Shown here: positions 5,144 to 30,761 of the stretch, one piece after another
Layout: every line of letters begins with the position of its first letter
Position numbering within the stretch: the first letter of the stretch is position 1
Source: Oscillospiraceae bacterium
GTDB lineage: Bacteria; Bacillota; Clostridia; UMGS1810
Assembly (NCBI GenBank): GCA_015069095.1
Contig: SVJH01000001.1
Location: 1-64,000, forward strand
Length of the DNA: 64,000 nt
Reading direction: 5' to 3'
Made by a program: the position numbers and the translations under genes
The notes under the pieces: generated by a model
Seen by the model: the letters and a program-made list of their open reading frames with translations, nothing else
Told to the model about the DNA's origin: nothing
Database searches by the model: none

Positions 5144-5177
5144 TTTGTTTTTTATAATTTTTGTTTTGTTTTTTATA
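5144..5177 (+). promoter_or_regulatory. Direct-repeat operator, 21-bp spacing (copy 1)
   Basis: TTTGTTTTTTATA occurs at 5144-5156 and again at 5165-5177, exactly 21 bp apart, so both lie on the same face of the helix. The second ends just upstream of a weak -35 (TTAACA at 5183). Pairs with the same core and spacing occur at 16097-16128 and 20169-20200, in the same direction relative to their genes. This is the arrangement expected of an AraC-type activator site. Confidence 0.65.
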
Positions 5178-5211: not shown

Positions 5212-5242
5212 TGAGAATATTTTGATGTATCAGGTGAAAAAT

Positions 5243-7516
5243 ATGAAAAGTCCTCTTGTTGTGATGAGTGCCGTTACGGGCAAGCCAAATAGAGAAGAAA
5301 TCTTTAAATATATGAATGGCCTTAAAAACTGTGGAATAGAACAGGTGATGGTATATCCGCGTTCTGGATGTGAACTTAAGTATTTATCAGACGAATGGTT
5401 TTGTGCAGTAGAAAATTTTATTGATGCTTCAGTTAAACTTGATATGAATTTGTGGCTATATGATGAATTCAACTGGCCTTCGGGTGATGCAGGCGGAGTA
5501 GTAAGTGAAAAATATCCTTTGAAGGCTATTGAAACCAAAGGCGAAAACAAGGGCGAAATAAGGTATCGTTCTCCGCTTGAAAATAAAAAAGACAGGTTTT
5601 TTCCTGACCTTTTAAATGAAGAAGCAACCGAGTTATTTATAAAATGCACGCACGAAAAATACTTTGAAAAATTTGGTAAGTATTTCGGAAGTGTCATAAA
5701 GGGTATATTTTCCGATGAGCCCGCTTTGGGATATACTGCAACAAAAACATCAATTCCGTATTATGACGAAATAGAAGAAGACTATAAGAATAAGTTTAAC
5801 CGAAGTTTTTCAGATGATTTAAAAAATGAACACGAAAACTTTTTGGGAAATGCGATAGATATTATTTCTGAAAGATTTAATAAATGTTTTGTTAAAAAAG
5901 TTGCCACCTGGTGTAAAGAACATAACGTTTTAATGACAGGTCACCTGATGGAAGATAACAATCCTTATGGTGGAGTACTTCAAAACGGGAATTTACTAAA
6001 AAATTTATCGGAATTTTCACTTCCGGGTGTTGACGAAATAGTTACAGATTTTTTTGACGAAAGAGAATTTGGCCTGTTAGCAACCGCGATGTATTCAAAA
6101 AGCGAAAACGGTCTTATGGCTGAACTTTTTGCACTGGGGCCATGTGATATAACGTATGCTAAAAAAAGATGTATGATTTATCTTATGTCCTGTTTCAAAG
6201 TGAATTATTATTTTCTTGGCTTATCTCATATAGATAAACGCGGAAATTACGTAAAAACACTTTATTTTAATGATTTTTCATGTGATCAGCCTGATTTTGA
6301 AGGAACAAGATTACTTTCTGAGGATGCAAAAAAAGCATCAGTTTTAGCAGATAAAGATTTTACGCCGAAAGTTTATGTAAGATATCCGCAAAAAGTATGT
6401 GCTAAATCACTTACTGATAAAAAAGATATAAAACGCTATTACAACCTTTTAAATGAACTTTCGTTTGCGCAAATTCCGTGGAAATTGCTTAATGAAAACG
6501 AAGATAGCAAAAATATTCCGACAGTTGAATTTACAGATGATTTTGATTATGTTTTAGACGGTAAGATTTCAGATGCAGATGAAATTATAAAAAGATTTGA
6601 AAATCTTTGTGTTACAGATGAAAACGGAAACACACCTGAAGGAATTTTTGTAAGAATTTTCGACGATGAAACATACGTCATAATAAATTTAAACGAAACT
6701 CAAAAAACACTAAAAAAAGATGGAAAAGTATTTAAAATAGAAGGGCACGGCGTTTTGATTTGTGAAATACCGTATGCTAAAAAAGAAGAAAAAGTTGATT
6801 TATCTTTTGATGTTAACTATAAAAATAACAATATGATGCGTGCAATGTACGCAGGAGATGCAAATAAAACAAAAGTAATATTAGAAGAAGATACTGATGT
6901 GATTTTTGCTGTAAGAAATGATACAGAAGCGCTCATAGAAAACAAAAAAATAGATGTAAGCGAAAAGAATAATGATACTTTGTTTGGGGGAATAAAAACA
7001 CTTTATAAGACATCTGAGAAAATATCTCTGAAAAAAGGAGAAACAGTTATTGAGTCAAAAGATGACATCAAATATCTTCCAAGTGTATTTGTAATTGGTG
7101 ATTTTAAAACAGATTTTATACCAGATGATATTTGCCGGGTTGTTTTATCTCCAAGAAAAAAAGAGTGCTGCACAGGTGAAAAAATAAGTGATTTTGGCAC
7201 AGTTGAATTTTCAGCGACTGTAAAAATACCTGAAGACGTAAAGTCAATAAAACTTATTGGAACAAATCTTTATACAAGACTTTATATTGATGATTTGCTC
7301 ATAGACGAAAAAATATACTCGCCATACGTTTTTGATATTGGCAAAGAATATTGGAATAAAGAAGTAAAAATTAAAATTGTGCAACATTCTTCTTTAGGAC
7401 CGATATTTGGCGATGTTAAATTTTTTGAAGATAATCTGAAAGGAAATTTCTGGCGAGGAACACCAACGCCTAAAGAAACACTTTTTGGGTTTGATGAGAT
7501 ATTATTTATATTTTAG
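5243..7516 (+). CDS. GH106-like (alpha-L-rhamnosidase-related) glycoside hydrolase, short form
   Basis: The 757-residue protein has a TIM-barrel region with WLYDEFNWPSGDAGG, the sequence style of GH106 and related rhamnosidase-like hydrolases (WxYDExxWPSGxAGG). It also has SVIKGIFSDEPALGY and a later FTDDFDY region. After about residue 500 it becomes beta-rich, with a possible galactose-binding-like C-terminal domain (GTVEFSATVKIP). No signal peptide is visible, so it should act inside the cell on imported oligosaccharides. Classical GH106 enzymes are longer (about 1000 residues). AGGTG 7 nt upstream favours ATG 5243 over TTG/ATG at 5222-5225. It is the first gene of the operon running to 14675. 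Family assignment is by motif only. Confidence 0.7.
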   Translation: MKSPLVVMSAVTGKPNREEIFKYMNGLKNCGIEQVMVYPRSGCELKYLSDEWFCAVENFIDASVKLDMNLWLYDEFNWPSGDAGGVVSEKYPLKAIETKGENKGEIRYRSPLENKKDRFFPDLLNEEATELFIKCTHEKYFEKFGKYFGSVIKGIFSDEPALGYTATKTSIPYYDEIEEDYKNKFNRSFSDDLKNEHENFLGNAIDIISERFNKCFVKKVATWCKEHNVLMTGHLMEDNNPYGGVLQNGNLLKNLSEFSLPGVDEIVTDFFDEREFGLLATAMYSKSENGLMAELFALGPCDITYAKKRCMIYLMSCFKVNYYFLGLSHIDKRGNYVKTLYFNDFSCDQPDFEGTRLLSEDAKKASVLADKDFTPKVYVRYPQKVCAKSLTDKKDIKRYYNLLNELSFAQIPWKLLNENEDSKNIPTVEFTDDFDYVLDGKISDADEIIKRFENLCVTDENGNTPEGIFVRIFDDETYVIINLNETQKTLKKDGKVFKIEGHGVLICEIPYAKKEEKVDLSFDVNYKNNNMMRAMYAGDANKTKVILEEDTDVIFAVRNDTEALIENKKIDVSEKNNDTLFGGIKTLYKTSEKISLKKGETVIESKDDIKYLPSVFVIGDFKTDFIPDDICRVVLSPRKKECCTGEKISDFGTVEFSATVKIPEDVKSIKLIGTNLYTRLYIDDLLIDEKIYSPYVFDIGKEYWNKEVKIKIVQHSSLGPIFGDVKFFEDNLKGNFWRGTPTPKETLFGFDEILFIF

Positions 7517-7561
7517 ATAATAGATATGTTTTAACAAATTAAAATTTAGGAGGAAAAAAGA

Positions 7562-10500
7562 ATGAAAAAAATTTTATGCTTAGTACTATCAATTTTAATG
7601 GTAATTTCATCTTTTAGTATGGTTGTATTTGCAAATGATGAAATCAGCGTGATAGTAAACGGCAAAAAACTTGTGATGGACCAAAGTCCGATTATTGTAG
7701 AAGGCAGAACACTTGTTCCACTTCGTGCAATTTTTGAAGCACTTGGTGCAACTGTAGAATGGGACGATGCCACAAAAACAGCAAGTGGAAAACTTGGTGC
7801 AAAAACAGTATCACTTCAGATTAACAACACAGTTGCAAAAGTAAATGGTGCAGATGTAACACTTGATGTTCCTGCACAGATTGTTAACTCAAGAACACTT
7901 GTACCTGTAAGATTTATTTCAGAATCTTTAGGCGCGCTTGTAGGCTGGAACGGTGACACAAGAACTGTTACTGTAACACTTGCATCTTCAAACGATAACC
8001 TTATTTTCTATGAAGATTTTGAAACTGCAGGGGTAAAGATTGGCGATAAACTTAAAGATACAATCGGTACTGCTGCTGCATTTGGTATGGTTCCAACTTA
8101 TGATTCAAATGCAAAGGAAGGTGCTAAAAGTATTAAATGCACACTTTCAGAAGGAAAAACTGCAAATTTAGGTTGTAAATTGTATTTAACATCAGATGCA
8201 AAAAACAAACTTGTTGATGGTCAAACATATACACTTTCAGCTTATGTTTACTTTGATTCACAAGTATCTGGATCGGGAAAAGTGTATATTAAAACACTAA
8301 ACGGTACAGGTGCAAAAGAAGTAGTAAAAGGTAAAGCACAAACAGCAAATAAAGGTGAGTGGACACTTATTACAAATACATTTGTATATGAAGCAGAAAA
8401 ATATCCTGATGGTCTAAACATAAGAATAGATACATTGGAAATTGGCGCAGGTTCTTTATATTACGTAGATGAAGTTAAAATTTCAAAAGGCGATAAAGTA
8501 GCAGAACAGGTTACCACAACCGTTACACCTCCGATCCTTTTGGAAAATGATATTTTCTATGAGAATTTTGAAACTGCAGGGGTAAAGATTGGCGATAAAC
8601 TTAAAGATACAATCGGTACTGCTGCTGCATTTGGTATGATTCCAACATACGATTCAAATGCAAAGGAAGGTGCTAAAAGTATTAAATGCACACTTTCAGA
8701 AGGAAAAACTGCAAATTTAGGCTGTAAATTGTATTTAACATCAGATGCAAAAAACAAACTTGTTGACGGACAGACTTACACGCTTTCAGCTTATGTTTAC
8801 TTTGATTCACAAGTATCTGAATCGGGAAAAGTGTATATTAAAACACTAAATGGTACAGGTGCAAAAGAAGTTGTAAAAGGTAAAGCCCAAACAGCAAAAA
8901 AAGGCGAGTGGACACTTATTACAAATACATTTGTATATGAAACAGAAAAATATCCTGATGGTCTAAACATAAGAATAGATACATTAGAAATTGGCGCAGG
9001 TTCTTTTTACTATGTAGATGAAGTTAAGATTTCAAAAGGCGAAGGTGTTGCTGCGGCAACACCTTCCTTAAAAAGTGAACTTGGAGATTATAAAGTTTTA
9101 GGAACAAAAGTAACAGATGGACACAGACCTGTTCCAACAAATTTTGAAACAGGCAAAAATTTTGAAGATTTATTGTGGTTTTCTGAGCAAAAAGAATATG
9201 ATATGGACAAGTTTTTAGCATCTCTTTCAGGCGGAGAAGTAGTTGCAGACGACAGCGTCCTTTTTAAAGATGAATTCTTCGGTGAATTTGAACAGGGGAA
9301 AATTGAGAAAATAGATGTAGAAGGTATGCCTTTTTCAAAGGCAGTAAGAGCAACTGTAAATGACATTGGCGTAAATCCTTACTCGTTTCAGATTCAGCTT
9401 GGAAATATTTTAACTGACAAAGCAAAAACGGGAGATATACTACTTCTTAAAGTTTATATGAGAACTGTTTCGGGCGGAGCAGATGAATCTATGAATGGAA
9501 AAATTCAGATGATTGTGGAACAAAATGTATCTCCACATGACAAAGCACTTCAGGCAGATGTTATTTCTACAACTGACTGGACGGTAAACTATCTTCCTTT
9601 TGAATTTAAGAATGAAAATTATGTAAGAGCAACAATAAGACTTGCTTATTACGAGCAGGTTGTTGATATTGGCGGGTACGAAATTGTAAATTATAAAAAT
9701 CAGGTAAAAGTAGAAGATTTGCCTGAGCAAGTTACAAATTCTTCAATAGCTAAAGATGCCACATGGCGAAAAGAAGCATGGGACAGAATCGAAAAGATAA
9801 GAAAAGGCGATTTTAAAGTTATTGTAAAAGATGCAAATGGAAATGTTATTCCAAATGCAAAAGTAAGCTTTGATATGTACGAACACGAATTTAAATGGGG
9901 AACAGCCGTAAGCCCTGCAATGCTTACAAACGAAAAATATCAAAGAGCACTTCAGGAAAACTGCAACTATATTGTTTTGGAATCTGAACATAAACCGCGT
10001 CTTTACGAAGAAGACCCTGCAGCTGCAGATAATACTGTAAGTCTTGCAAAGGACCTTGGAATAAAAGCCGCAAGAGGACATTGTCTTGTTTGGGACAAAA
10101 GATGGAATCCTGAAGGGCTTAATACTTCTACAACAGATAAATTTAATGAAATTATAAATTCGGGCGATAAAGCCGCTTTAGAAGCAGAAATTAAACGTTC
10201 TATATTCGCTACTTTAGAAAGAACAAAAGGTACTTTAACTGACTGGGACGTTTTAAACGAAGGGCTTCGAAATGATATGCGATTTTTGGCAGATGATGGT
10301 CATAACACAACAGAATACGGATACTCGCTTATCAAAAAAATGTATGACTGGGCAAGAGAAGCGGGCGGAGATATTGATCTTTACTATAACGATTATATAA
10401 TGACGAGCGAACTTATAACACACGTTGAAAATATGATTGCGCATGGTGTGGATTTTGACGGCGTAGGACTTCAGACACATAACGGATATATGGGAAGTGA

Positions 10501-10927
10501 CATTACAACTCATCTTCGTCTTTGGGACAAGATAGCATCACTTGGCAAAAAGGTTAAAATTACAGAGTTTGATGTAGATACAGATGACCTTAACTTCCAG
10601 GCAGATTTTAGCCGTGATATGCTTATAGCAGCATTTTCGCATGAGGCAGTTGACGGATTTGTTATATGGGGAATGAACACCAAAGAGGATATTATGTATG
10701 ACTCTAAATTTGAAAATGCAAAACCTGCACTTAAAGCATGGCAGGATTTAATCTACAACAAATGGTGGACAAACGAAAGCACTCAGTCAAATGCAAACGG
10801 CGAAGCAACTGTAAGAGGTTTTTACGGTGATTACGATATTACAGTAACAGCAAACGGAAAATCAAAAACTGTATCAGCACCGCTTTATAAAGCAAACAAT
10901 AATGAAATCGAAATATTTTTAGACTAA
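7562..10927 (+). CDS. Secreted GH10 endo-xylanase with stalk domain and duplicated binding modules
   Basis: The protein has 1121 residues. Order: signal peptide (1-24), copper-amine-oxidase-N-type stalk domain (about 29-140; VEGRTLVPLRAIFEALG and SRTLVPVRFISESLG), two almost identical carbohydrate-binding-like modules (148-310 and 331-493), a CBM22/CBM4-like module (about 505-735), GH10 barrel (about 740-1070) and a short beta domain. In the barrel, RGHCLVWDKRW matches the GH10 RGHTLVWH region, Glu900 in WDVLNE is the acid/base and Glu1002 in KITEFD the nucleophile. It should cut xylan outside the cell; the stalk domain probably keeps it at the surface. RBS GGAGG precedes ATG 7562. A diverged homologue is at 49163. 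Confidence 0.93.
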   Translation: MKKILCLVLSILMVISSFSMVVFANDEISVIVNGKKLVMDQSPIIVEGRTLVPLRAIFEALGATVEWDDATKTASGKLGAKTVSLQINNTVAKVNGADVTLDVPAQIVNSRTLVPVRFISESLGALVGWNGDTRTVTVTLASSNDNLIFYEDFETAGVKIGDKLKDTIGTAAAFGMVPTYDSNAKEGAKSIKCTLSEGKTANLGCKLYLTSDAKNKLVDGQTYTLSAYVYFDSQVSGSGKVYIKTLNGTGAKEVVKGKAQTANKGEWTLITNTFVYEAEKYPDGLNIRIDTLEIGAGSLYYVDEVKISKGDKVAEQVTTTVTPPILLENDIFYENFETAGVKIGDKLKDTIGTAAAFGMIPTYDSNAKEGAKSIKCTLSEGKTANLGCKLYLTSDAKNKLVDGQTYTLSAYVYFDSQVSESGKVYIKTLNGTGAKEVVKGKAQTAKKGEWTLITNTFVYETEKYPDGLNIRIDTLEIGAGSFYYVDEVKISKGEGVAAATPSLKSELGDYKVLGTKVTDGHRPVPTNFETGKNFEDLLWFSEQKEYDMDKFLASLSGGEVVADDSVLFKDEFFGEFEQGKIEKIDVEGMPFSKAVRATVNDIGVNPYSFQIQLGNILTDKAKTGDILLLKVYMRTVSGGADESMNGKIQMIVEQNVSPHDKALQADVISTTDWTVNYLPFEFKNENYVRATIRLAYYEQVVDIGGYEIVNYKNQVKVEDLPEQVTNSSIAKDATWRKEAWDRIEKIRKGDFKVIVKDANGNVIPNAKVSFDMYEHEFKWGTAVSPAMLTNEKYQRALQENCNYIVLESEHKPRLYEEDPAAADNTVSLAKDLGIKAARGHCLVWDKRWNPEGLNTSTTDKFNEIINSGDKAALEAEIKRSIFATLERTKGTLTDWDVLNEGLRNDMRFLADDGHNTTEYGYSLIKKMYDWAREAGGDIDLYYNDYIMTSELITHVENMIAHGVDFDGVGLQTHNGYMGSDITTHLRLWDKIASLGKKVKITEFDVDTDDLNFQADFSRDMLIAAFSHEAVDGFVIWGMNTKEDIMYDSKFENAKPALKAWQDLIYNKWWTNESTQSNANGEATVRGFYGDYDITVTANGKSKTVSAPLYKANNNEIEIFLD
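8003..8491 (+). repeat. Intragenic duplicated binding module, copy 1
   Basis: 489 bp that align with 8552-9040 at a constant offset of 549 without indels and with few differences. Each encodes one 163-residue jelly-roll-type module (GTAAAFGM, CTLSEGKTANLG, YYVDEVKIS). The high identity points to recent duplication or gene conversion. Confidence 0.85.
8552..9040 (+). repeat. Intragenic duplicated binding module, copy 2
   Basis: Partner of 8003-8491; same 163-residue module with scattered, mostly third-position changes. Confidence 0.85.
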
Positions 10928-10948
10928 TTTTAAATTATGAGGAATGTT

Positions 10949-11863
10949 ATGAAAACAAAAAAACTGGTGGGAATTTCAACCTTTCAATTGCAAAGAATTT
11001 ATGGCGATGAAAAAGCACTTGAAATAGCAAGTAAGATTGGAGCAGATGCGATAGATTTTGACCTTTCCTGCTGCGAAAGATTTAATTGTGAAAACCCATT
11101 ATCAATTTATTCTAAAAGTGATGATGAAATACGACAGTATTTTTCTCTGCTAAAAGATAAGGCAGAAAAACTTGGTATTAAAATATCGCAAACTCATGGA
11201 AGATTAAGAATATATTTGGGTAATCCTGATGAGGATAAAATTGCACTTGAAAATGCAAGACTTGATTGTCTGGCTACATCAGTTTTAGGTGCACCGTATT
11301 GTGTAATGCACAGTATTGCAACAAGTGTAACAGGTCCCGATGCAGATGCGTCATTTATGCATGATACCTGTTTTGGAGTATATAAAACAATTATTGGTTA
11401 TGCAAAAAAATACGGTGTAAAAATAGCAACCGAAACAATGGGAGATTCTCCAAAATATGGCTGTTGTGATTTTTTCGGAAACCTTGCAGAATTTAAAAAA
11501 ATGTACGACAGAGTTTGTGCTTATGAAGATAATGAAAATTATTTTGTCATCTGCATTGATACAGGGCATTGCAATAAAGCTATGAGATTTAACAACAATC
11601 CAAAACCGTCGGATTTTATTCGTGCGATGGGAGACAAAATAAAGTGCTTACATTTGAATGATAACAATACTTTTACCGACCAGCACAAAATTCCCATGTC
11701 GGGAGATATAGACTGGAACGATGTAGTGAAAGCGCTTGACGAAGTAGGATATGACGGTGTATATAACCTGGAACTGAATCTTAAAAATTTCGGAGAAGGT
11801 TTGGAAATAGAAATGGCAGAATTTGCAATTAAAGTAATGAGAAATATGCTAAATTTAAAATAA
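10949..11863 (+). CDS. Sugar phosphate isomerase/epimerase-like TIM barrel protein
   Basis: The 304-residue protein resembles the xylose-isomerase-like TIM barrel family (AP endonuclease 2 fold). Markers are ISTFQLQRIYGDEKALEIA, SQTHGRLR, the metal-binding style ATETMGDS, ICIDTGHCN (Asp and His), LHLNDN and a final YNLELNL. Such proteins isomerise or epimerise sugars or related polyols using a divalent metal. The start at 10949 has AGGA 6 nt upstream; ATG 10937 lies on that site. It sits in the xylanase operon, 21 bases after the GH10 gene, so it probably handles a released monosaccharide. The substrate cannot be named. Confidence 0.85.
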   Translation: MKTKKLVGISTFQLQRIYGDEKALEIASKIGADAIDFDLSCCERFNCENPLSIYSKSDDEIRQYFSLLKDKAEKLGIKISQTHGRLRIYLGNPDEDKIALENARLDCLATSVLGAPYCVMHSIATSVTGPDADASFMHDTCFGVYKTIIGYAKKYGVKIATETMGDSPKYGCCDFFGNLAEFKKMYDRVCAYEDNENYFVICIDTGHCNKAMRFNNNPKPSDFIRAMGDKIKCLHLNDNNTFTDQHKIPMSGDIDWNDVVKALDEVGYDGVYNLELNLKNFGEGLEIEMAEFAIKVMRNMLNLK

Positions 11864-11876
11864 TGAGGTCGATAAA

Positions 11877-14675
11877 ATGAAAAAAATTATTTGTTTGACA
11901 GTTGCGTTTGTTTTGTGTATGGTTTTTTGTGTTTCTTATGCAGAAAGTTCTATATATACACAAAATTTTGACGAATTAGGTATTGCTGATAATACGCAGA
12001 TTTCAACGGATATCGCAGCAGGTGCAAGCAATGGTGCTAATCCAGTGGTTTCATCTAAATACGCATATTCAGGCACATATAGTATGAAAGTGCATTTTAA
12101 AAGTAATAGTACAGCAACCAGTGGTCTTGGAGCTAAACTTTTGTTAACAGATACTCAAAAAGCAGCGCTTGTAGATGGAACAGAGTACATAATAAAAGCA
12201 AAAGTATATTACGAATCTTTAGAAAATAACAGTGTATCTATTGATTTACAAACAATGAATAAAGCAAAAGTATCACAATCAAGAACAAATGTTACAAAAG
12301 GGTCATGGCAGGATATTCAACTGATATTTGTATATGAGGCAAGCAGCCATCCTGATGATTTCTATTTCAGATTTGTATCAGCTTCAACTGTCATCCCTAC
12401 GGACTGTTATTATGTTGATGATGTAGTAATCGAAAAAAATGTGCAAAAATCATACTTTGCTTCAAAATCAGCAAATTTTGACGATATAGATGAGCTTGTT
12501 AGCAACGTGGATTTTTCGAACAACGATTCAAAATCAACAATTTCAATTTCTAAAGAGATGGACCATACTTTAGGTACAGGAAAAAGTATGAAAGTTACAG
12601 GTGCAGAAAGCACATCGGGAAGAATTTGTCTTATGGACTTTTTTGAAGAAAGCGAACTTGGTAGTACTTGTTATGTAAGACTTTATATTTATCCACTGAC
12701 AGACGGAAGTTTTAGAATAGGTATAAAAGGCGATACAAATTCAAACAGCTATTGGGGAGCTAATCAGTTTTTCGAAGTAACAGCCAATAAGTGGAATGAA
12801 ATTATCATTCAAGTTGAAGTAGTAGAGAAAAGTACATCTTCTGCAACAAAAATAACAAATCATATTGCAATAGTACAAAATGGTGGACCGATAGACACAT
12901 TTTATATTGATGATGTAAGTCTTTATACTCCTACATTAGAACCTGCACAGTATTTTGCAGACCATGCAGTATTTCAGAGAAATAAACCAATTCCTGTTTG
13001 GGGTACACACACAAATAAAGATGCAACCATAACGGTTGTTTTTGATGGTGAAACAAAACAGACAAATGTAAATGAAGACGGCACATGGAAAGTTGAGTTT
13101 GATGCTAAAGACGTAAAAACAGATGTTGAAATGTCAATTTCAGACGGCGAAATTACTTATGAATATAAAGATATAGCAATCGGCGAACTTATTCTTTGTG
13201 CAGGTCAGTCGAATATGCAGATAAAAGTATATGCAACAGAAGATTACGAAAAAATGCTTGAAATTTGTGAAAGCTATGACATAAGATTTTTTGAGCAGGA
13301 TAATGCCGAGTCGTTTGATGAGCAACTTGATGTAACAAACGGCAGATGGATACTTTCCAGTAAACAAAATTTACAATATATTTCAGCGCTTCCTTATTAC
13401 ACAGCGTATTTCTTACACGATTATTTAGAAAATGTTCCGATTGGCCTTGTTGATATGGCTTATGGCGGAACAAAAATTCAAACATGGGTAAGCGAAGATA
13501 TAGTAAGAAACAACGATATGTTTAACGGTATAGAAAAACAACTTGATAATGCGATTGAAAGTGGTCAAATAGACAGAAATACACCTTCTGCATGTTATAA
13601 TGCTATGTTCTATCCAATGCGTCATCTTCCTGTAAAATCTATTATTTGGTATCAGGGTGCATCTGACGTGGCAGGCGATGTATATAGCGCAATGTTTGAT
13701 GAACTTGTTAAAATGTGGCGTGAAAATTACAACGATGAAGATATGGTTGTTATTGTAACACAGCAGACACCAAATGATGGAAAATCACCGGGTATGAGAA
13801 TGAATCAGTTTACCGATGCTAAAAGAAATCACAATGTATTTTGTATATCAACTGAAAATGAAGGACCTAACGGAAGAGAAACTCCGGACCTTGGGCCTTC
13901 TCATACAAGAGATAAAACGCCACTCGGATTTAGAATGGCGCAAATAATGAAAGCAAATATTTATGGAGAAGATATTGAATATTCCGGTCCTGAATATAAA
14001 TCAATGACAGTAAAAGACGGCAAAGCAATTCTTATATTTGACCATATTGGTACAGGAATGATAATTGATGATGGCAGAGAAAAACTTTATGGATTTGAAA
14101 TTTCAGATGATCCTTCAGTGGATATTTATACAGAAGGCGAAGGGTTTGTGCCTGCAGATGCCGAAATTGCCGGAAATACAGTTATTGTGTCAGCTCCGGG
14201 AATAACAAATCCGGTAAGCGTTAGATACTGCCACGTACGAATTGACGAAGAAATAAGAAGCGAAACAGGCAGTGCAACACTTGGTGGAAACCTTTCAAAT
14301 AACACAAAAATTCCGGCATGTCCGTTTATTGCAACACTTAGCGATGCAGATTTTGAAACGATAAAAATTACAGATACAAAAGGCAATGAAGTGGCACTTA
14401 AAGATGGCATAAAAGACGGAATAAAACTAACGATAAATTCAAAAAATGAAGGACTAAGCGCACAGGATGCGAAAATTATTGTTGCTTATTACAAAAACGG
14501 AATTCTAAGTGATACAGAAGTTATTGATTCGTATTTTGAAACAAGAATGGGCAGAAGTTTTACATCAAAAGTAATAAAAGATGAAGCTTATTTAGAAAAT
14601 GATAACTGCGAAATAAAATTATTTTTATGGAATGCAAAAACAGTTCCTCTTACACAAAGTATATCAGTGAAATAA
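11877..14675 (+). CDS. Secreted sialate-O-acetylesterase-type (SASA) carbohydrate esterase with two binding modules
   Basis: The 932-residue protein has a signal peptide (1-22), two jelly-roll binding-like modules (about 25-190 and 200-360; each ends in YYVDDV or FYIDDVS), a SASA esterase core (about 365-790) and a C-terminal beta domain (KLFLWNAKTVPL style). The core shows VFQRNKPIPVWG, the catalytic Ser445 in CAGQSNMQ, MAYGGTKIQTW and a late SHTRDKTPLGFRMA that should supply the Asp/His pair. Such enzymes remove acetyl groups from sugars; beside GH10 xylanase, deacetylation of xylan or rhamnose-containing polymer is more likely than sialic acid. It is the last gene of the operon and a strong terminator follows. 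Confidence 0.9.
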   Translation: MKKIICLTVAFVLCMVFCVSYAESSIYTQNFDELGIADNTQISTDIAAGASNGANPVVSSKYAYSGTYSMKVHFKSNSTATSGLGAKLLLTDTQKAALVDGTEYIIKAKVYYESLENNSVSIDLQTMNKAKVSQSRTNVTKGSWQDIQLIFVYEASSHPDDFYFRFVSASTVIPTDCYYVDDVVIEKNVQKSYFASKSANFDDIDELVSNVDFSNNDSKSTISISKEMDHTLGTGKSMKVTGAESTSGRICLMDFFEESELGSTCYVRLYIYPLTDGSFRIGIKGDTNSNSYWGANQFFEVTANKWNEIIIQVEVVEKSTSSATKITNHIAIVQNGGPIDTFYIDDVSLYTPTLEPAQYFADHAVFQRNKPIPVWGTHTNKDATITVVFDGETKQTNVNEDGTWKVEFDAKDVKTDVEMSISDGEITYEYKDIAIGELILCAGQSNMQIKVYATEDYEKMLEICESYDIRFFEQDNAESFDEQLDVTNGRWILSSKQNLQYISALPYYTAYFLHDYLENVPIGLVDMAYGGTKIQTWVSEDIVRNNDMFNGIEKQLDNAIESGQIDRNTPSACYNAMFYPMRHLPVKSIIWYQGASDVAGDVYSAMFDELVKMWRENYNDEDMVVIVTQQTPNDGKSPGMRMNQFTDAKRNHNVFCISTENEGPNGRETPDLGPSHTRDKTPLGFRMAQIMKANIYGEDIEYSGPEYKSMTVKDGKAILIFDHIGTGMIIDDGREKLYGFEISDDPSVDIYTEGEGFVPADAEIAGNTVIVSAPGITNPVSVRYCHVRIDEEIRSETGSATLGGNLSNNTKIPACPFIATLSDADFETIKITDTKGNEVALKDGIKDGIKLTINSKNEGLSAQDAKIIVAYYKNGILSDTEVIDSYFETRMGRSFTSKVIKDEAYLENDNCEIKLFLWNAKTVPLTQSISVK

Positions 14676-14999: not shown

Positions 15000-16007
15000 T
15001 TACTCGCCTTTAGCGCCAAGCCATTTAAGATTTTCGCCTGCATCGTTTACGCTGTATGTAAATACTTCACCAAGATATGTTTCGCCGTCTACTACAACAT
15101 AAGGAACAACAAGTATTTTTTCACCAAAGTATTCTTCGCCGATTTCTTCGACAAGTACGTTTATAAGACCATTTGCATCTTTTAGACTGTTTTTAGCATC
15201 ATCGCCTGTAGCAAAAACGCTTTGTTTGCCATCTTCATATCCCAATCTGTAAACGTACATACCAAAACTATCGTATGACGCAACATCATCATCGTTATCA
15301 GAAATGTATGCATCAAATGAAATTGCGCCTGTTTTTACATCTGCATCAAAAGTATCAGCATAGTAACCTGCGTCTGCTGTTGTGCTTACTTTTTCGCCTT
15401 TAGTGTTTTTAAAGTAGTCAGTTACAACTTCTTCAACTGCAAGATTGTCAATATAAAGAATATCTTTGTTTTCGCCACTTATGTCATAAGTAGTGCCGTC
15501 TATTCTTACATTAATACCGTCTGTGGCATCAGCTGCTGATGCATTATACACAAATTCTTCAGAATAAATTGTTGTCCAATTTCCAGCCTTGCAAGAAGTT
15601 ACACTCTGGGATAGAACAGTTCCTTTCCATCCATTTAAGTAACCAATCTTAATTTGTTTTTTATCTACGTCAGTAGATGCGTTAAGATCAACAAATACAT
15701 CTGCTTTAAATCTGTATGTTTTGCCATTCTCTAAAATGCTATTGTCAACACGTATTTTTGCACCACAATTGTTGTTCGTAGCATTTTTGTATAGTGCAAT
15801 ACATCCAGAGCCGTCTTTGCCGTTAGTTGTATTAAATTCTACTGTATTTGCAACAACAACACCGGCAAACTTGTCATTAAGTTCGCTTTCAACGTCAAAA
15901 TTCTGTGTCCATACTGTTTCATAACCTGTATAAGCAAAAGCAGGCATAATGCTTAAAACAGAAAACAGCATGGTAAGCGTGATTAAAATTGCAATAATTT
16001 TTCTCAC
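15000..16007 (-). CDS. Secreted carbohydrate-binding-like protein without a catalytic domain
   Basis: The 335-residue protein has a signal peptide (1-25, MRKIIAILITLTMLFS, ending AFA) and one jelly-roll module (about 28-195; WTQNFDVE, LYIDNLAVEEV). This is similar to the modules on the GH10 and SASA enzymes. A second beta-rich domain follows (about 200-330; SFDAYISDNDDD, VPYVVVDGETYLGEVF). No hydrolase motif is seen. It should be an extracellular sugar-capturing protein. Its promoter carries the 21-bp-spaced operator seen upstream of the xylanase operon, so co-regulation is likely. The GTG or ATG choice does not change the signal peptide: ATG follows AGGAGG. Confidence 0.8.
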   Translation of the reverse strand: MRKIIAILITLTMLFSVLSIMPAFAYTGYETVWTQNFDVESELNDKFAGVVVANTVEFNTTNGKDGSGCIALYKNATNNNCGAKIRVDNSILENGKTYRFKADVFVDLNASTDVDKKQIKIGYLNGWKGTVLSQSVTSCKAGNWTTIYSEEFVYNASAADATDGINVRIDGTTYDISGENKDILYIDNLAVEEVVTDYFKNTKGEKVSTTADAGYYADTFDADVKTGAISFDAYISDNDDDVASYDSFGMYVYRLGYEDGKQSVFATGDDAKNSLKDANGLINVLVEEIGEEYFGEKILVVPYVVVDGETYLGEVFTYSVNDAGENLKWLGAKGE

Positions 16008-16090
16008 TTTTACTCCTCCTTATAAAATAATTTTTTTAAAATGAAAAAATCTATATGCTATTTTATGATACCATAATATTAAAATAAATA

Positions 16091-16231
16091 AAATCCAAAA
16101 AACAAAGGAAAAATGATAAAAAACAAAGATTTTTATTGAAGAATTTTGCTATATGATTATAATAAATGAATATATCTTGTTTTTAGTTTATTTAAAATCT
16201 GAAATATCAAATTTCCATTCTTCTCTTTTTC
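16091..16231. repeat. 141-bp direct repeat bounding the Fe-S cassette, copy 1
   Basis: Matches 20163-20303 at a constant offset of 4072 with five mismatches and no gaps. It covers the last 15 codons of the QueG-like gene 16188-17123 plus the downstream operator region that serves the next gene. Confidence 0.9.
16097..16128 (-). promoter_or_regulatory. Direct-repeat operator, 21-bp spacing (copy 2)
   Basis: On the minus strand CTTTGTTTTTT occurs twice, at 16118-16128 and 16097-16107, exactly 21 bp apart. A TAAAAT -10 candidate lies at 16060-16065, with the weak -35 about 8 bases from the operator. It serves the secreted binding protein at 15000-16007. Confidence 0.65.
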
Positions 16232-17123
16232 TAAATGGAGTTTTAAATTTTTTAGAAAGCATTCCTTTTTCTTCAAGATGAATATAGCATGCTACATCAC
16301 ATGCTCTGCCGCATATTGAACATTGGTATGCATGTTGAGCAGGCGGATAAAAGTATATATTATCGAGTATTTTTTTTGCAGTTTCTTTAGTTACTTTTGC
16401 ATCTCCTGCTATAATTTCAATTCTGTTGTCAAAGTTCGAAAATGCATCTTTTGGCATAAACGGATTTTTTGTTCCATTTGCACCGTTATAATATACTGCG
16501 CATTGCCACGCATCAACACTTCCGTCGTCATTTATTGCTTTGCCAGGGCAGGCATTTTTACATTTTCCGCATTTATCACATAAATGCGGTTCTACAACAT
16601 CATCAGTTTCAAATTCAGCGTCCGTAAGTATAAAGCAGTATCTTACCATTGGACCAAATTCATCAGTAATTAGTGCATTGTGAAATCCTTTTTCACCAAG
16701 TCCGCATTTAATTGCAGTATCAAGAAAATCAATCTGTGTTTCCTGTGTTTTGTTGCGATATACAGAGTTATAATCAACTTCAGGATTGGTGCTGTCTTCT
16801 TCTGCCATTATCTGCTGATGTTTTCTTTGTGGCATAGCAAGGTTTCCTTCTTCTTCCAAAAGCATACACACTTTAAGCTGTGCCATAGGCATTATGGTTT
16901 CTTCCATATTTTCTACACCCATAGTTGTGTACTGATAATATGTGCTTCCTTCTTCAATACCGCGGTATATACCTCTTAAAACCCTGAATGCAAGTCCTAT
17001 AACAGTTTTTGTTTCAGGCATTATTTTAAATATCGGATTATCTTTTTCAAATCTTTTAGCAGGGGCAAATTTTATGATATCTGCTCCATTAGCTATGGCA
17101 AGCTCAATGATTTTGTTTTTCAT
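16188..17123 (-). CDS. QueG-like double-[4Fe-4S] protein, paralogue 3 of 3
   Basis: The 311-residue protein resembles epoxyqueuosine reductase QueG and the C-terminal half of reductive dehalogenases. Signs are GLGEKGFH at 140-147 (QueG GLGxxGK region), Cys182/185/188/192 in CDKCGKCKNACPG, Cys208 in DAWQC, and Cys268/271/275/279 in CSICGRACDVAC. Two cubane clusters are expected; QueG itself also uses cobalamin. It is the last gene of the four-gene cassette: a single base separates its start from the stop of the previous gene, and AAAGGGGGA precedes the ATG. With three different paralogues in a row, a role in queuosine synthesis is unlikely for all. The redox substrate is unknown. Confidence 0.8.
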   Translation of the reverse strand: MKNKIIELAIANGADIIKFAPAKRFEKDNPIFKIMPETKTVIGLAFRVLRGIYRGIEEGSTYYQYTTMGVENMEETIMPMAQLKVCMLLEEEGNLAMPQRKHQQIMAEEDSTNPEVDYNSVYRNKTQETQIDFLDTAIKCGLGEKGFHNALITDEFGPMVRYCFILTDAEFETDDVVEPHLCDKCGKCKNACPGKAINDDGSVDAWQCAVYYNGANGTKNPFMPKDAFSNFDNRIEIIAGDAKVTKETAKKILDNIYFYPPAQHAYQCSICGRACDVACYIHLEEKGMLSKKFKTPFRKREEWKFDISDFK

Positions 17124-17124
17124 A

Positions 17125-18018
17125 TTATATTTCCCCCTTTAAATGTTTATGGCAGGCCATATCACATTTTCTTCCACACAGGCATGGAACATATCCCCAC
17201 TGTGTTTTAGGAAGAAAATCAAGCTCTTTGTATATTTCTCTTGCTGATTCTGCATCAAAACGTTTTTGACCATTCAAAATTGCATCTCGTTCAGGATGGT
17301 TTTTTAAGAAATCTTCTCTAATAAACGGATTTGATTTGTGAGCACCTTTGTAATATACTGCACACTGCCACGTATCAAGACCGTTTTCATCTATTGCATT
17401 TCCCGGGCATACTTTAATACATTTGCCGCATTTATTACAGATTTCTTCTGTCAAAGGTTCATCACACTCAAGTGGAGCATCTGTTATGATAAAGCAATAT
17501 CTCATAAACGGGCCGTATTTTTTGTTGATTATTTTTCCACTAAGCCCCATTTCGCCAAGGCCACAAGCTTTTGCAGCTTTGCCAAAATCAATAATAACAT
17601 CAGGCACAGGTTTTCCTTCTTCTACAGCCTGCGCGTGTATAAGTTCATACGTATCAACAACCTCAGGATTTGTAGTTTTATCTCCTTTAATTCTTAAATT
17701 AGGAATTGCTTTTTGAAGGCAGGCATCATATCCCTCGTTCTCTATTATTCCACCCATTTTAAGTAAGAATATTTCTGCCATTTCTTCGTCAATATATTTA
17801 ACGCCCAAAGAAGTGTAAGTGTAATACTGTGCGTTATTTTCCATCGCTTTATATATAGCTTTTGGAACTAAAAAACCAAAACCAATTATAGCTTTTGCAT
17901 TCGGTAAAATCATTTTAGGAGAACGTTGAGGATTTTCTTCTTCATAAATCTTACCAATTCCGCATATAGTAGCACCCATCTCTTTTGCTTTTTGTTTAAT
18001 AAATTCAGCTGTAAGCAT
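17125..18018 (-). CDS. QueG-like double-[4Fe-4S] protein, paralogue 2 of 3
   Basis: The 297-residue protein shares the layout of its neighbours: an N-terminal IGFGFLVPKAIYKAME segment, GLGEMGLSG at 153-161, a first cluster CNKCGKCIKVCPG (Cys194/197/200/204) and a second CLCGRKCDMAC (Cys279/281/285/289). The second motif is tighter than in paralogue 3, with CxC replacing CxxC at its start. Strong AAGGAGG precedes the ATG. It lies 15 bases after the upstream paralogue, in the same direction. It is cytosolic, with no Tat or Sec signal, unlike exported respiratory reductive dehalogenases. Reaction unknown. Confidence 0.8.
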   Translation of the reverse strand: MLTAEFIKQKAKEMGATICGIGKIYEEENPQRSPKMILPNAKAIIGFGFLVPKAIYKAMENNAQYYTYTSLGVKYIDEEMAEIFLLKMGGIIENEGYDACLQKAIPNLRIKGDKTTNPEVVDTYELIHAQAVEEGKPVPDVIIDFGKAAKACGLGEMGLSGKIINKKYGPFMRYCFIITDAPLECDEPLTEEICNKCGKCIKVCPGNAIDENGLDTWQCAVYYKGAHKSNPFIREDFLKNHPERDAILNGQKRFDAESAREIYKELDFLPKTQWGYVPCLCGRKCDMACHKHLKGEI

Positions 18019-18033
18019 AATATAGAGTCCTCC

Positions 18034-19116
18034 TTATCTGTCCAATTTCCAAGCTTTTTTTGTTCTGAGTGGCTCTTTGAAACGATTTTCCATACATCCG
18101 CCCTTTTTCTCCAAAACAGATACACACGCTCTTATGCAACCGCCACATTTTGCCATGTTATATCCAACCCAACTTGGAAAATATTTTTGCAGTGCAGTAT
18201 ATACCTTGACAACTTCGTCTTCATTTGCAATATCGGTAACACCTTCCATAAGGTCAAGTGAGCCGTTTTCGTTTTTGTCCCATACTTCTTTTGGAACGAA
18301 TGGGTTATAGTAACGACCTGCGTGAGTATAAAAGGCATAGCAACGCCACATATCAATATCTGCCCATTCAAGAATTTTGCCATCTAAGTTTACTGTTAAT
18401 TTTTTGCCTGAGTTAAGTGCAGGAATACAACCGCCGGGACATTCTCTTACGCAGGCACCGCATTTGCGACAAAGTGGGGTGCCATTATACATTTGGTCAT
18501 ACTCATCAACCTCAGCATCAGTAAAAATAAATGCCACACGTTGAAGTGGTCCGAATTCAGGCGTTAAAAGCATTTTACTCCAGCCAATTTCACCAAGTCC
18601 ACAGGCAACAGCCGCAATTCTGAACTGAAACTGCAAATCCGGTGCAACGTTATCTTCTCGGGTAGGTCTTGTAAACTGAACACTTCTATGATGTGGTGTT
18701 GCATTTCGCTGTCCTTCGTTAACTTCAATCTGTTCTTCAGGTGATAATGTGTTTCCGGGTGCACCGTCCATATCAGAAACTACACCTCTTGCACCTGTAT
18801 TACGATAAACAAATGCTTCATAGCCTTCGTCTTCAATAACTTTTCCAACCTGGTACAATACTGCCGGCGCAAAAATTTCGTTTATACCGCCGTATGCCAT
18901 TGAAGGATACTGATAAAACTGAGTACCTTCTTCTATACCTCTTTGTACTCCTCTTGGAATTCGAAATACAAATCCTATACAGCTTTTTGCTTCAGGGAAT
19001 AAAAACTGTGGATTCATTTCATCAGGAGCACCATTAAATCTTGACATTGGCGCAATGCCGCAAGCATCTGCTCCTGCAGCTAGTGCTGCTTCTTTTATTA
19101 GTTTGCTGCTAATCAT
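18034..19116 (-). CDS. QueG-like double-[4Fe-4S] protein, paralogue 1 of 3 (long form)
   Basis: At 360 residues this is the longest of the three paralogues. It shares IGFVFRIPRGVQRGIEEG with them, has GLGEIGWSK at 173-181, a first cluster CRKCGACVRECPGG (Cys216/219/222/226) and a second CGGCIRAC (Cys324/327/331). An insertion of about 45 residues (TLSPEEQIEVNEGQRN and HHRSVQFTRP) precedes the GLGE motif and is absent from the other two. This may shape a different substrate pocket. CGGAGG precedes the ATG, and its first 8 bases overlap the end of the U32-like gene, implying translational coupling. Confidence 0.8.
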   Translation of the reverse strand: MISSKLIKEAALAAGADACGIAPMSRFNGAPDEMNPQFLFPEAKSCIGFVFRIPRGVQRGIEEGTQFYQYPSMAYGGINEIFAPAVLYQVGKVIEDEGYEAFVYRNTGARGVVSDMDGAPGNTLSPEEQIEVNEGQRNATPHHRSVQFTRPTREDNVAPDLQFQFRIAAVACGLGEIGWSKMLLTPEFGPLQRVAFIFTDAEVDEYDQMYNGTPLCRKCGACVRECPGGCIPALNSGKKLTVNLDGKILEWADIDMWRCYAFYTHAGRYYNPFVPKEVWDKNENGSLDLMEGVTDIANEDEVVKVYTALQKYFPSWVGYNMAKCGGCIRACVSVLEKKGGCMENRFKEPLRTKKAWKLDR

Positions 19117-20071
19117 ATTTTTCCTCCGATTTATTATTATCTAATGAAAGTTTAACTAATTTTAAAGGATCTCCATTTTCCAAAATATATGGATATATAC
19201 TGAAAGTTGGCTCGAGAAGTCTTAAAATATCGCCGATGTATTTTTGATTTATGTAGCTTTCTAATATGACCTTAGGATTGCTATGTACTCTTGTGGCAAG
19301 TTTTACAGATTCAAACAATCCTTCGTATTTGTAAATATTTTCAGGTCTTACAAAGTTTGTACATTCTAAAAGTTTAGGATAGTTTTTTTCGTCTTTCAAA
19401 AAATCGCGACATATACCGACAAAATTATATGCATTATCCATTTTTGCAATTTCACTTTCGTGAGATACGAGATTATCATGAAAGTTGTGTGCGGGGCAGA
19501 AATTCAAACATCCGCTGTTTGCAAGCATAAAAAGTTTCTTTCCGTTTACATCACACCAGTTTTTAAGTTCTTTAATTTTTTGAAAATCTCTGTTATATTC
19601 GCGTTTCATATAGTATCCGTCAAATAAGTCGGCAACGTACTCCATAGCAGATACCGTTCCGATTTCCATATTTACAGATGCTCGAAGCGTAATATCTTTG
19701 AAATTGTTTTTTACAAATTTTGCAATAAGCGGCGATGTAGTTGTTATAGAATTTAATCCGTATGTTCTTTTAATGTAATCGATTGTATTGCCGATTTTGT
19801 TAAAAAACGATCTTGACTGACTGTCTTTTCCATAACAGTTTGCATTTAAAAGCAGATTAAGCAAAATGTTGTTTATACTTAATTTTTTAAGTGCGTCATC
19901 CTGCCATTTTTGCATTTCCCATTCAGTGTATTGTTCACTCTGAGTTTGAAGATTTCTTCCATTTGGGATATTGCCCCAAGAAAAATACACTTCATAAATA
20001 TGCTCTTTATTATCTATTATATTTTCCAAAAATGTTATGTTTTGGTTATTCAACCCGACCATATATTTCAT
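19109..20071 (-). CDS. U32-peptidase-like iron-sulfur protein heading the cassette
   Basis: The 320-residue protein looks like a diverged member of the peptidase U32 family (UbiU/UbiV/TrhP/RlhA type). It is TIM-barrel-like, with IEVYFSWGNIP-type strands, TTSPLIAKFVK, LRASVNMEIGT and a Cys set at 188, 192 (SGCLNFCPAH), 221 and 237 that could hold one [4Fe-4S] cluster. U32 members usually perform cluster-dependent hydroxylation or modification, often oxygen-independent. I start it at 20071 because GGTGG lies just upstream of that ATG; the ATG at 20131 has no such site. It is the first gene of the cassette and its promoter carries the shared operator. The family call is moderate. Confidence 0.6.
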   Translation of the reverse strand: MKYMVGLNNQNITFLENIIDNKEHIYEVYFSWGNIPNGRNLQTQSEQYTEWEMQKWQDDALKKLSINNILLNLLLNANCYGKDSQSRSFFNKIGNTIDYIKRTYGLNSITTTSPLIAKFVKNNFKDITLRASVNMEIGTVSAMEYVADLFDGYYMKREYNRDFQKIKELKNWCDVNGKKLFMLANSGCLNFCPAHNFHDNLVSHESEIAKMDNAYNFVGICRDFLKDEKNYPKLLECTNFVRPENIYKYEGLFESVKLATRVHSNPKVILESYINQKYIGDILRLLEPTFSIYPYILENGDPLKLVKLSLDNNKSEEKYD

Positions 20072-20132
20072 AATTTCACCACCAAAGCTATTATTTGCAT
20101 AGATTTTCGGTATCTGTAACAAATTCTTCACA

Positions 20133-20161
20133 ATTATATTTTATCAAATCTAAAAATAAAG
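20133..20161 (-). promoter_or_regulatory. Promoter of the Fe-S cassette
   Basis: On the minus strand TATAAT lies at 20133-20138, with a weak CTTTAT -35 candidate at 20156-20161 (17-nt spacer), 7 bases from the operator. The sequence around the -10 (GATAAAATATAATTG) closely matches the -10 region of the GH106 operon (GGTAAAATATAATTG). Confidence 0.55.
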
Positions 20162-20162
20162 T

Positions 20163-20303
20163 AAATCCAAAAAACAAAGCAAAAATAACAAAAAACAAAG
20201 ATTTTTATTGGAGAATTTTGCTATATGATTATAATAAATGAATATATCTTGTTTTTAGTTTATTTAAAATCTGAAATATCAAATTTCTATTCTTCTCTTT
20301 TTC
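20163..20303. repeat. 141-bp direct repeat bounding the Fe-S cassette, copy 2, with gene remnant
   Basis: Copy of 16091-16231. Its 20260-20303 part still encodes, on the minus strand, the last codons of a QueG-like gene (KREE-stop-KFDISDFK), with the Trp codon of the intact gene changed to TAG. The remnant ends abruptly at a REP-like repeat at 20306. Confidence 0.88.
20169..20200 (-). promoter_or_regulatory. Direct-repeat operator, 21-bp spacing (copy 3)
   Basis: CTTTGTTTTTT on the minus strand at 20190-20200 and 20169-20179, 21 bp apart, just upstream of the cassette promoter. It lies inside the 141-bp repeat. Confidence 0.65.
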
Positions 20304-28550: not shown

Positions 28551-29552
28551 AAGTATAAATATGATGGCAATAACCTACGGCAAAGCAAAACAACAAACGG
28601 CGTAAAAACAAGTCATATTTACGATGGACAAAACATAGTTTTAGATGTAACTGAAAACGGCAATACTGTTTATAACAGAGGTTTAACTCTGATTAACAGA
28701 ACAAACCAAAATGGTACTGATTATTACCATTTCAACATTCACGGTGACACAGTTGCCTTAACAGATGCTAACAATCAAATAACCGTTAACTACAAATATG
28801 ATGCTTTTGGAAATCAGTTGACAGATAACACAAACGATACAAACCCATTCCGTTATTGCGGAGAATACTTTGATGCTGAAACAGGATTTGTATATTTAAG
28901 AAATAGGTATTATGACCCAAGTTTAGGACGTTTCATCAGTGAAGATCCTCATTGGAATGTAAGCAATATGATTTATGGGGATAAACAGTATAAAGAAGAT
29001 GAAATAAAAATTCCTGATATGTCCGCAATAATGCAAAACAATAATTTGTATATTTATTGCATCAGCAACCCAATACAATACAAAGATCCGTCAGGAAAGA
29101 ATAAAACGATAGATTTAGGTAGTGGTTGGTCGTATAGAATTGATAATGGGCAAAATGGACAACAACATATTCATGTTGATGGCCCAAATGGTCAAAGTTA
29201 TAGTAGAAATGCAGATGGTACAAAACATGATGGGAGCGAAGATACCCCGCCAAAATGGGTTCGAAAAAAGATTGATGAAAAACTTGGAAAAAAAGGTCCT
29301 TGGAAATGGGATGTTGGAGACTCAAACAATAACAATAGAAATTCAAATAATAGCTCTAACACTAATTCAGATAATAAATCATCCAGCAAAAATATCTCTA
29401 ATAATTCTAAAGTATCAAAAGCGGTAAGTAAAGGTGTAGGGATTGGATTAGGTTTATACACAGCATATCAATTTTGCAAATGGGCAATAGCGACAATGGC
29501 GGCGCCATATACCGGAGGAAGTTCGTATGTAATTGCTGGTGCAATGCCATAA
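28551..29552 (+). pseudogene. Orphan Rhs core with toxin-like C-terminal tip
   Basis: The frame opens after a stop at 28548-28550 and has no ATG with a ribosome site near its start, so it looks silent. It encodes the Rhs core end: KYDGNNLRQSK, GTDYYHFNIHGDTVALTD, NPFRYCGEYFDAETGFVYLR, NRYYDPSLGRFISEDP and YCISNPIQYKDPSG. A variable tip begins after the DPSG boundary: GWSYRIDNGQNGQQHIHVDG, YSRNADGTKHDG, an Asn/Ser-rich linker and a hydrophobic end. This is the organisation of polymorphic toxins, in which the tip is the toxin. The tip's activity is unknown to me. A probable immunity gene follows 16 bases later. Confidence 0.75.
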
Positions 29553-29567
29553 GAAATGGAGGATTAT

Positions 29568-29996
29568 ATGAATTATTTCACAGAAGAGCTTTGGAAAGGT
29601 ATAAATGGAATTTCTGATGTTTACGATATTGAAACTGCAGATGTGGTGTTTCAGGAAAATATATTAAAATATAATGAATATTTTCACACAAAAATAGTAC
29701 CATTTTTATCAAAAGTTACATTAGAATTGTATGAAAAATATGATGGATTTCATGATATGAAAATCATAAAATTACAATATGAGAAGAATAAATTCTATAT
29801 TTACGGGAAAACAGTACATATTACATTTGATGATATAAAAGAGTTACATGCAAATATTATTGGTTATATTGATACATTTGGATATATGGAAATTTTTTAT
29901 CGTAAAGAAACTAATGATTTCCAAGTAGGAATACTTTTTTCTTGGGAAGATAGCATTTATATAACTTGTAGCAGTATCATTGTTGAACCAGCATAA
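29568..29996 (+). CDS. Probable immunity protein for the Rhs tip (DUF4085-like)
   Basis: A 142-residue cytosolic protein starting MNYFTEELWKGI, with GGAGG 5 nt before the ATG at 29568. It contains FHDMKIIKLQYEKNKFYIYG and a beta-rich C-terminal half, reminiscent of the DUF4085 family (YFTKE-type start and an HD motif), though this is from memory. Its position immediately after a polymorphic toxin tip is the classic place for a cognate immunity gene. Codon use is AT-rich like the tip. It has its own ribosome site, so it could be expressed even if the toxin lacks a start. Confidence 0.6.
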   Translation: MNYFTEELWKGINGISDVYDIETADVVFQENILKYNEYFHTKIVPFLSKVTLELYEKYDGFHDMKIIKLQYEKNKFYIYGKTVHITFDDIKELHANIIGYIDTFGYMEIFYRKETNDFQVGILFSWEDSIYITCSSIIVEPA

Positions 29997-30002
29997 CACA
30001 AG

Positions 30003-30100
30003 AACAGTTTGGGGACGGGGCAGTTTCTGTTACATAACACAAAAACGGCTTTGTTCTAAAATAAAACTAATTAAGGCAGGTTTAAAACCTGCCTTTTTTG
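30003..30100 (+). repeat. GGGGACGGGGCAG-type repeat, copy 4 (subtype B), ending in a terminator
   Basis: TTTGGGGACGGGGCAGTTT, then CTGTTACATAACACAAAAAC and GGCTTTGTTCTAAAATAAAA, ending in a hairpin AAGGCAGGTTT / AAACCTGCCTT (30073-30099). The 37806 copy has the same extension (subtype B). Confidence 0.75.
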
Positions 30101-30101
30101 T

Positions 30102-30761
30102 TTGATTTTATTGACAAGGGAAGAGGCAAATGGTAAAATAAAAACGTACAGTTACGATAATAACGGCAACAGAATAGGTTTTTCACTTGCCGTTAACGGC
30201 GAAAATGTGATTGATACAACTTACACTTATGATGCATTAAATCGCCTTGCAACTGTAACGAATAACGGCGAAACAACAACGTATGCATATGACAACAATG
30301 GCAATTTGATTTCATCACAAACAGGCGAAAATGCTGTTACTTATGAGTACAATAACGCAAATATGCTAAAGAGCCAGACAAACAACACTCTTGGCGTAAC
30401 TTATGGCGCAACGTACTACTTAAACGGCAACCGCAGAACGCTTGACGAAACAAACAAACCGCAAATTGTTTACACATACGATGACTATGGAAAACTTGTA
30501 AATGAAGATGCAAGTTCGTATATTATAAATTACATCTATGACAACCGTGGTAACCGCATACAAAAAGCAAAAACCGAACTTGGCTTAACAGAAACTACAA
30601 CATATTCTTACGATAAAAACAACAAATTATTGCAGGAATATATGTACTATGACGGTGTTGAGCACGTTACAGATTACACATACGACAACAACGGAAATCA
30701 GATTGTAACTAACTACTACACCCTATCGGAAAACGAAGAAGAGAGCAAGGTTTGGGATTAA
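30102..30761 (+). pseudogene. Rhs YD-repeat fragment
   Basis: 219 residues of Rhs/YD repeats: ANGKIKTYSYDNNGNR, TYTYDALNRLATVTNNG, TTYAYDNNGNLIS, YTYDDYGKLVNE, YIYDNRGNRIQKA and TDYTYDNNGNQIV. It lacks an N-terminal secretion or anchoring part, the conserved core end and any tip, and closes soon after the repeats. It is a middle piece of a large Rhs gene, not a complete gene. Its first codons overlap the TTGACA/TAAAAT promoter-like element. It may have been split from the same parent as the tips at 28551 and 36162. Confidence 0.8.

Follow-up and report, generated by a model that had tools for sequence, protein, structure and literature searches.

The 64,000-nucleotide stretch of Oscillospiraceae DNA analysed here (the window) carries a four-gene cassette encoding a very divergent U32-fold iron-sulfur protein and three paralogous proteins, Q1, Q2 and Q3, which lie within the cobalamin/[4Fe-4S] fold of RdhA and QueG but form a branch that is neither QueG nor RdhA. 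The folds are known ones; for the clade, the gene combination and the cysteine spacing we found no earlier description, and the open-access literature yielded no account of the cassette. It occurs in herbivore-gut bacteria and is co-controlled here with xylan-digesting genes, and it points to novel anaerobic chemistry on plant-derived material. Our best explanation, to which we assign slightly less than an even chance, is that the cassette encodes the enzymes of a low-potential, anaerobic redox system that acts on a small molecule derived from the plant cell wall. If true, this would explain how gut anaerobes handle a cell-wall component beyond ordinary hydrolases. The cassette offers the field a defined target in the form of four genes, a candidate regulator, an operator and named host genomes. 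The cassette genes are as follows.

19109 to 20071, minus strand: U32-like iron-sulfur protein (320 aa), the first gene, start ATG at 20071
18034 to 19116, minus strand: Q1 (360 aa), RdhA/QueG-fold protein, from its ORF, structural matches and tree
17125 to 18018, minus strand: Q2 (297 aa), second paralogue, with eight cluster cysteines, from its ORF, profile score and tree
16188 to 17123, minus strand: Q3 (311 aa), third paralogue, with eight cluster cysteines, from its ORF, profile score and tree

The layout proposed in the first-pass annotation, four ORFs in tight succession, is borne out by these coordinates: the U32-like gene and Q1 overlap by 8 bases, and gaps of 15 bases and 1 base separate Q1 from Q2 and Q2 from Q3. 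An in-frame GTG at 20131 offers an alternative start for the U32-like gene, but relatives align from the ATG at 20071 instead. When 84,980 species genomes were scanned, 372 stretches proved to encode relatives of the U32-like protein, and the analysis used the best 80 of these. The order U32-like, Q1, Q2, Q3 was kept on one strand in 65 of the best 80; the other 15 comprised 11 loci cut by contig ends, 2 with the Q block on the opposite strand and 2 with the U32 gene alone, one of the latter in a genome that has Q1 to Q3 on another contig. Among 391 genomes of the class, a cassette-type Q1 was present in all 18 with a cassette-type U32-like gene; one further genome of the class combines a Q1 of 64% identity with a two-gene version, in which a protein designated U32' accompanies one Q1-like gene (L021, L022, L061, L062, L063 and L204). 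The order is thus kept in other genomes, and the prediction of a conserved multi-gene unit across Clostridia held; chance clustering of the four genes is ruled out by the conserved order and the co-occurrence. The source genomes come mostly from goat, roe deer, sheep, buffalo and other herbivore guts, and two belong to the Lentisphaerota, a host spread that suggests that the cassette has moved between lineages as a unit.

The Q proteins share 38 to 40% identity with Q3, in keeping with their description as three tandem paralogues. As had been noticed at the outset, each carries a CxxCxxCxxxCP motif followed by four later cysteines, and the second set varies, being CxxCxxxC in Q1 and CxxxCxxxC in Q2 and Q3; all eight cluster cysteines are 100% conserved in 71 Q1, 67 Q2 and 67 Q3 sequences. 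An insertion after the first Q1 cluster motif had been called paralogue-specific, a claim that did not stand: it is also found in the Q proteins of the two-gene version, so that it looks ancestral, and shortened in Q2 and Q3. Of the four proteins, Q1 has evolved most slowly, with a median identity to the window copy of 83% versus 56 to 66% for the others. In a Foldseek search with the predicted Q1 model (pLDDT 81.5), all 46 matches at E of 1e-3 or below were RdhA or QueG, followed at weak E values by the B12 chaperones CblD and CblC; the fold match covers a nitroreductase-like domain joined to a two-cluster ferredoxin domain, the combination that marks class III cobalamin enzymes.

Although the Q proteins share with RdhA (TIGR02486; PceA, NpRdhA) the N-terminal nitroreductase-type fold, the ferredoxin part with two [4Fe-4S] clusters, a GLGExG...FGPxxR motif and the active-site arginine (PceA Arg305), they score only 36 to 57 bits, over part of the profile, against a family cut-off of 160.35 bits; they fall in a separate clade, and unlike RdhA they are encoded as a trio of paralogues, alongside a U32-like protein, in a single operon under carbohydrate regulation. 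With QueG (TIGR00276) they share the class III cobalamin fold and the same eight-cysteine cluster layout, but their scores (21 to 50 bits, again partial) lie far below its cut-off of 200 bits, they are tandem paralogues in a clade of their own, they have the active-site arginine that QueG lacks, and they stop shortly after the last cluster cysteine and therefore have no C-terminal QueG domain. Profile searches and a profile-profile comparison, in which only four QueG sequences were used, place the Q family nearer to RdhA than to QueG. In an 84-sequence tree, each of the three paralogues formed its own clade with full support, Q2 being sister to Q3. Nested with them were the single Q proteins of the two-gene version and Q-like genes, tandem or single, from other Bacillota, and this whole branch stood apart from both QueG and RdhA; because the tree search was quick and the QueG and RdhA branches are long, the deep joins need care. 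On this phylogeny each paralogue is an ancient clade of its own. Identification of the Q proteins as ordinary RdhA is ruled out by score and tree, and as ordinary QueG by score, tree and domain layout. Elsewhere in the phylum, tandem pairs of two different Q-like genes occur with no adjacent U32-like gene (L201:5778-7880, L202:3581-5502 and L205:3411-5383). A single Q-like gene adjoins a cysteine-synthase-like gene at L207:6256-7164 and L208:6079-7119, which represent another uncharacterised branch of the same fold.

These comparisons bear on two alternative functions. The closer approach of the Q profile and fold to RdhA than to QueG would suit ordinary reductive dehalogenases of natural organohalogens, but with scores of at most 57 of the required 160 bits, a separate clade and a sugar-related gene context, we find this scarcely credible. 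A queuosine-like system for RNA or cofactor modification, induced during growth on plant fibre, is also very improbable. QueG and most characterised U32 proteins are RNA modifiers, and five of the cassette-bearing genomes tested gave no QueG-type match besides their Q-like proteins. Against such a system stand its patchy spread (18 of 391 genomes of the class), the AraC-type control held in common with xylanases, the carbohydrate neighbours, the truncation of the Q proteins after the ferredoxin part and the possession by the host genome of its own QueG-like gene, a short form (L024:175-972, on contig G000:C22) of 265 aa scoring 176 bits against the cut-off of 200. The initial exclusion of queuosine synthesis is upheld by this separate gene, by the low QueG scores and by the separate branch; the proposed phylogeny did not group Q1 to Q3 with ordinary QueG in one clade. 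Short QueG-type forms of this kind are also present in related genomes.

The assignment of the first gene product rests on a fold search and on its distant relatives. The window protein gave no match to the Pfam U32 family (PF01136, cut-off 22.4 bits); three closer relatives scored 15.6 to 19.8 bits, and distant relatives, at 28 to 57 bits, exceeded the cut-off. Its AF2 model (pLDDT 86) has as its top Foldseek match the U32 protein Mk0906 (5d88; E of 8.5e-11), the next match lying at about 1e-4. The original label "U32-like" is therefore correct at the level of fold but not at that of a Pfam match for the window protein, which diverges strongly within the U32 fold and shows a new four-cysteine spacing. 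C79, C188, C192 and C221 are 100% conserved in 79 sequences and are predicted to be the ligands of a [4Fe-4S] cluster. Like the U32 family (PF01136; UbiU/UbiV, TrhP, RlhA and Mk0906), the protein has a TIM-barrel fold and four conserved cysteines, but it is paired with RdhA/QueG-fold proteins, and its spacing of CxnCx3Cx28C differs from the CXnCX12CX3C of UbiV and the CX6CX16CX38C of UbiU (PMC6747719). Two distant U32 relatives (L065:5912-7093 and L066:6783-7925) lie inside natural-product-looking clusters with carrier-protein and adenylation-like genes.

The main rival to our explanation makes the U32-like protein the catalyst, an O2-independent hydroxylase or oxidase like UbiU-UbiV, with Q1 to Q3 as cobalamin-free iron-sulfur subunits for electron transfer. 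U32 proteins do act as iron-sulfur oxidases, often in hetero-oligomers (PMC6747719, PMC11574389), and Q2 and Q3 keep all of their clusters without the tyrosine discussed below. However, conservation is much stronger in Q1 than in the U32-like protein (median identities to the window copy of 83% and 56%), a pattern unlike that of a mere electron carrier, the active-site arginine is retained in all Q proteins, and Q-like genes exist without U32 in the tandem pairs of L201, L202 and L205. We consider this rival fairly unlikely.

Arg193 (Q1 numbering), which is invariant in all Q proteins, aligns with PceA Arg305, a proton-transfer residue that QueG lacks (PMC4646009). The tyrosine proposed as proton donor in RdhA (PceA Tyr246) is matched in the alignment by Tyr75 of Q1, but within a gapped region, and an ungapped alignment puts Glu80 at the catalytic position instead. 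The Tyr75 position is tyrosine only in Q1 and most outgroups; every Q2 and 93% of Q3 have valine there, and a glutamate that follows shortly afterwards, Glu80 in Q1, is nearly invariant across the three paralogues. The gapped alignment and the missing aligned tyrosine in Q2 and Q3 count against a cobalamin reductase, as does the lack of a cobalamin riboswitch in the 64-kb window, in which Rfam gave no match at all. A gene for a B12-binding protein was found in every genome tested, of MetH size in nearly all, including the host genome, so that a cobamide is probably available to cassette hosts.

The regulatory context was examined through the following features of the window.

20169 to 20199, minus strand: cassette operator, two TTTGTTTTTT half-sites 21 bp apart, then a -10-like TAAAATATAAT
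16097 to 16127, minus strand: second operator copy, upstream of the gene at 15000 to 16007
5144 to 5174, plus strand: third operator copy, between the AraC gene and the xylanase operon
15000 to 16007, minus strand: gene for a secreted protein with no Pfam match, just downstream of the cassette and an operator target
4251 to 5087, minus strand: AraC-family regulator, resembling a cassette-flanking AraC (36% identity over its full length, E of 5e-60)
5222 to 14675, plus strand: xylanase operon behind the third operator copy
5222 to 7516, plus strand: glycosidase-like protein, xylanase operon
7562 to 10927, plus strand: GH10 xylanase with CBM, xylanase operon
10937 to 11863, plus strand: AP_endonuc_2 TIM barrel, xylanase operon
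11877 to 14675, plus strand: SASA esterase with CBM, xylanase operon
16075 to 16231 and 20147 to 20303, strand not assigned: 157-bp direct repeat, 94% between copies, the second upstream of the U32-like gene

An AraC gene lies near 67 of the best 80 cassettes, mostly divergent and adjacent, and of the 56 cassettes whose AraC gene is both nearby and divergent, 42 carry two TTTGTTTT half-sites exactly 21 bp apart, with at most two mismatches in all (0 to 2 in shuffles); we infer that AraC binds this operator. With three mismatches allowed, the full operator occurred four times in the host genome, every time exactly, and the reversed pattern had no occurrence there. The four sites precede the cassette, the secreted-protein gene at 15000 to 16007 and two GH10 loci, one being the operon in the window and the other, on a different contig, the fourth of five tandem secreted GH10 genes (L246:234-15846, on G000:C13). 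The operator first reported as common to the cassette and the xylanase operon is thus confirmed by exact copies at both, and the cassette appears to be part of a small xylanase regulon in its own genome. Co-control with xylanases did not extend to the other cassette genomes tested, in which the operator was found only at the cassette: across 19 genomes a general operator pattern matched cassette promoters only, besides one weak non-cassette match in the host genome. The xylanase link is therefore local, and this counts against the reductase interpretation. The first copy of the 157-bp repeat spans the end of Q3 (~44 bp) as well as the operator/promoter. This arrangement suggests an earlier tandem duplication or recombination event that supplied the current promoter of the cassette and separated the cassette from its AraC gene.

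At the best 80 loci, carbohydrate-related neighbours are of several kinds, and for this reason "xylan" is better read as "plant polysaccharide"; an aryl compound, the substrate suggested at first, is only one option. A small cupin-like gene, in most cases placed between Q1 and Q2, is present at 29 loci, a GFO/IDH oxidoreductase at 28 and DUF5696 glycosidase-like proteins at 13, and further neighbours include serine hydrolases, GH106, AXE1, GH3 and GH43. Among these neighbours there was no constantly linked gene for a transporter or electron donor, which counts against a reductase complex. The two-gene version resembles the cassette in having both kinds of protein adjacent, sugar-catabolism neighbours (GH10, GH28 or pentose-type genes) and, in one copy, a position beside a GH10 xylanase, but it has a single Q gene, and U32' has a cysteine-rich C-terminal extension. 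At L022:4891-19355 it occurs twice on opposite strands, one copy being cut by a contig end, with MetF- and MetH-like genes between.

These surroundings lend something to another alternative, the O-demethylation of methylated plant sugars or phenolics, such as the 4-O-methylglucuronate of glucuronoxylan, in which Co(I) would accept the methyl group and pass it on. The GH10 regulon of the host genome, the position of the two-gene version beside GH10 in L021 and GH28 in L022, and the MetF- and MetH-like genes of L022 would fit such a reaction. The substrate, however, is a guess from context, the cassette neighbours held no constantly linked methyl-acceptor gene, and the RdhA/QueG fold is not known to act as a methyltransferase; we regard demethylation as decidedly unlikely.

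We return to the low-potential redox system as our preferred reading. The known reactions of the B12/iron-sulfur fold are reductive dehalogenation and epoxyqueuosine reduction, and a widespread linked cassette with three ancient paralogues and a U32 protein, under xylanase-type control here, implies a further reaction class. The proposed reductase complex would probably be cobalamin-dependent, and we infer cobalamin binding, a heteromer, the direction of the reaction and the nature of the substrate. The AraC regulator would sense a product of polysaccharide breakdown and activate the promoter through the tandem TTTGTTTT half-sites. Q1 would be the catalytic core, with the class III cobalamin enzyme fold, holding base-off cobalamin in its N-terminal domain and two [4Fe-4S] clusters in its ferredoxin domain. 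Co(I), together with Arg193 and a proton donor, either Tyr75 or Glu80, would serve to break a C-O bond, such as that of an ether or O-methyl group or that of a hydroxyl on a decorated sugar or hydroxycinnamate. The other two paralogues may be diverged partners in the Q1 complex, serving as electron relays or as further substrate-specific reductases, and the U32-like protein, with one [4Fe-4S] cluster in its TIM barrel, may bind or activate the substrate or perform a paired oxygen transfer. The conserved order, the co-occurrence of U32 and Q1, the Lentisphaerota genomes, the fold matches and cysteine sets, the invariant Arg193, the B12-binding protein genes, the four operators and the carbohydrate neighbours argue for a reductase. 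In its most specific form, a third functional type within the class III cobalamin enzymes, in which a three-subunit heteromeric Q reductase and a U32-fold iron-sulfur protein anaerobically cleave a C-O bond (ether, O-methyl or hydroxyl) of compounds derived from plant polysaccharides in herbivore guts, the proposal is a tentative one that we consider possible rather than probable.

Apart from the cassette and its regulon, the window contains fragments of RHS/YD-repeat-like proteins at 28818 to 30761 and 36261 to 37343.
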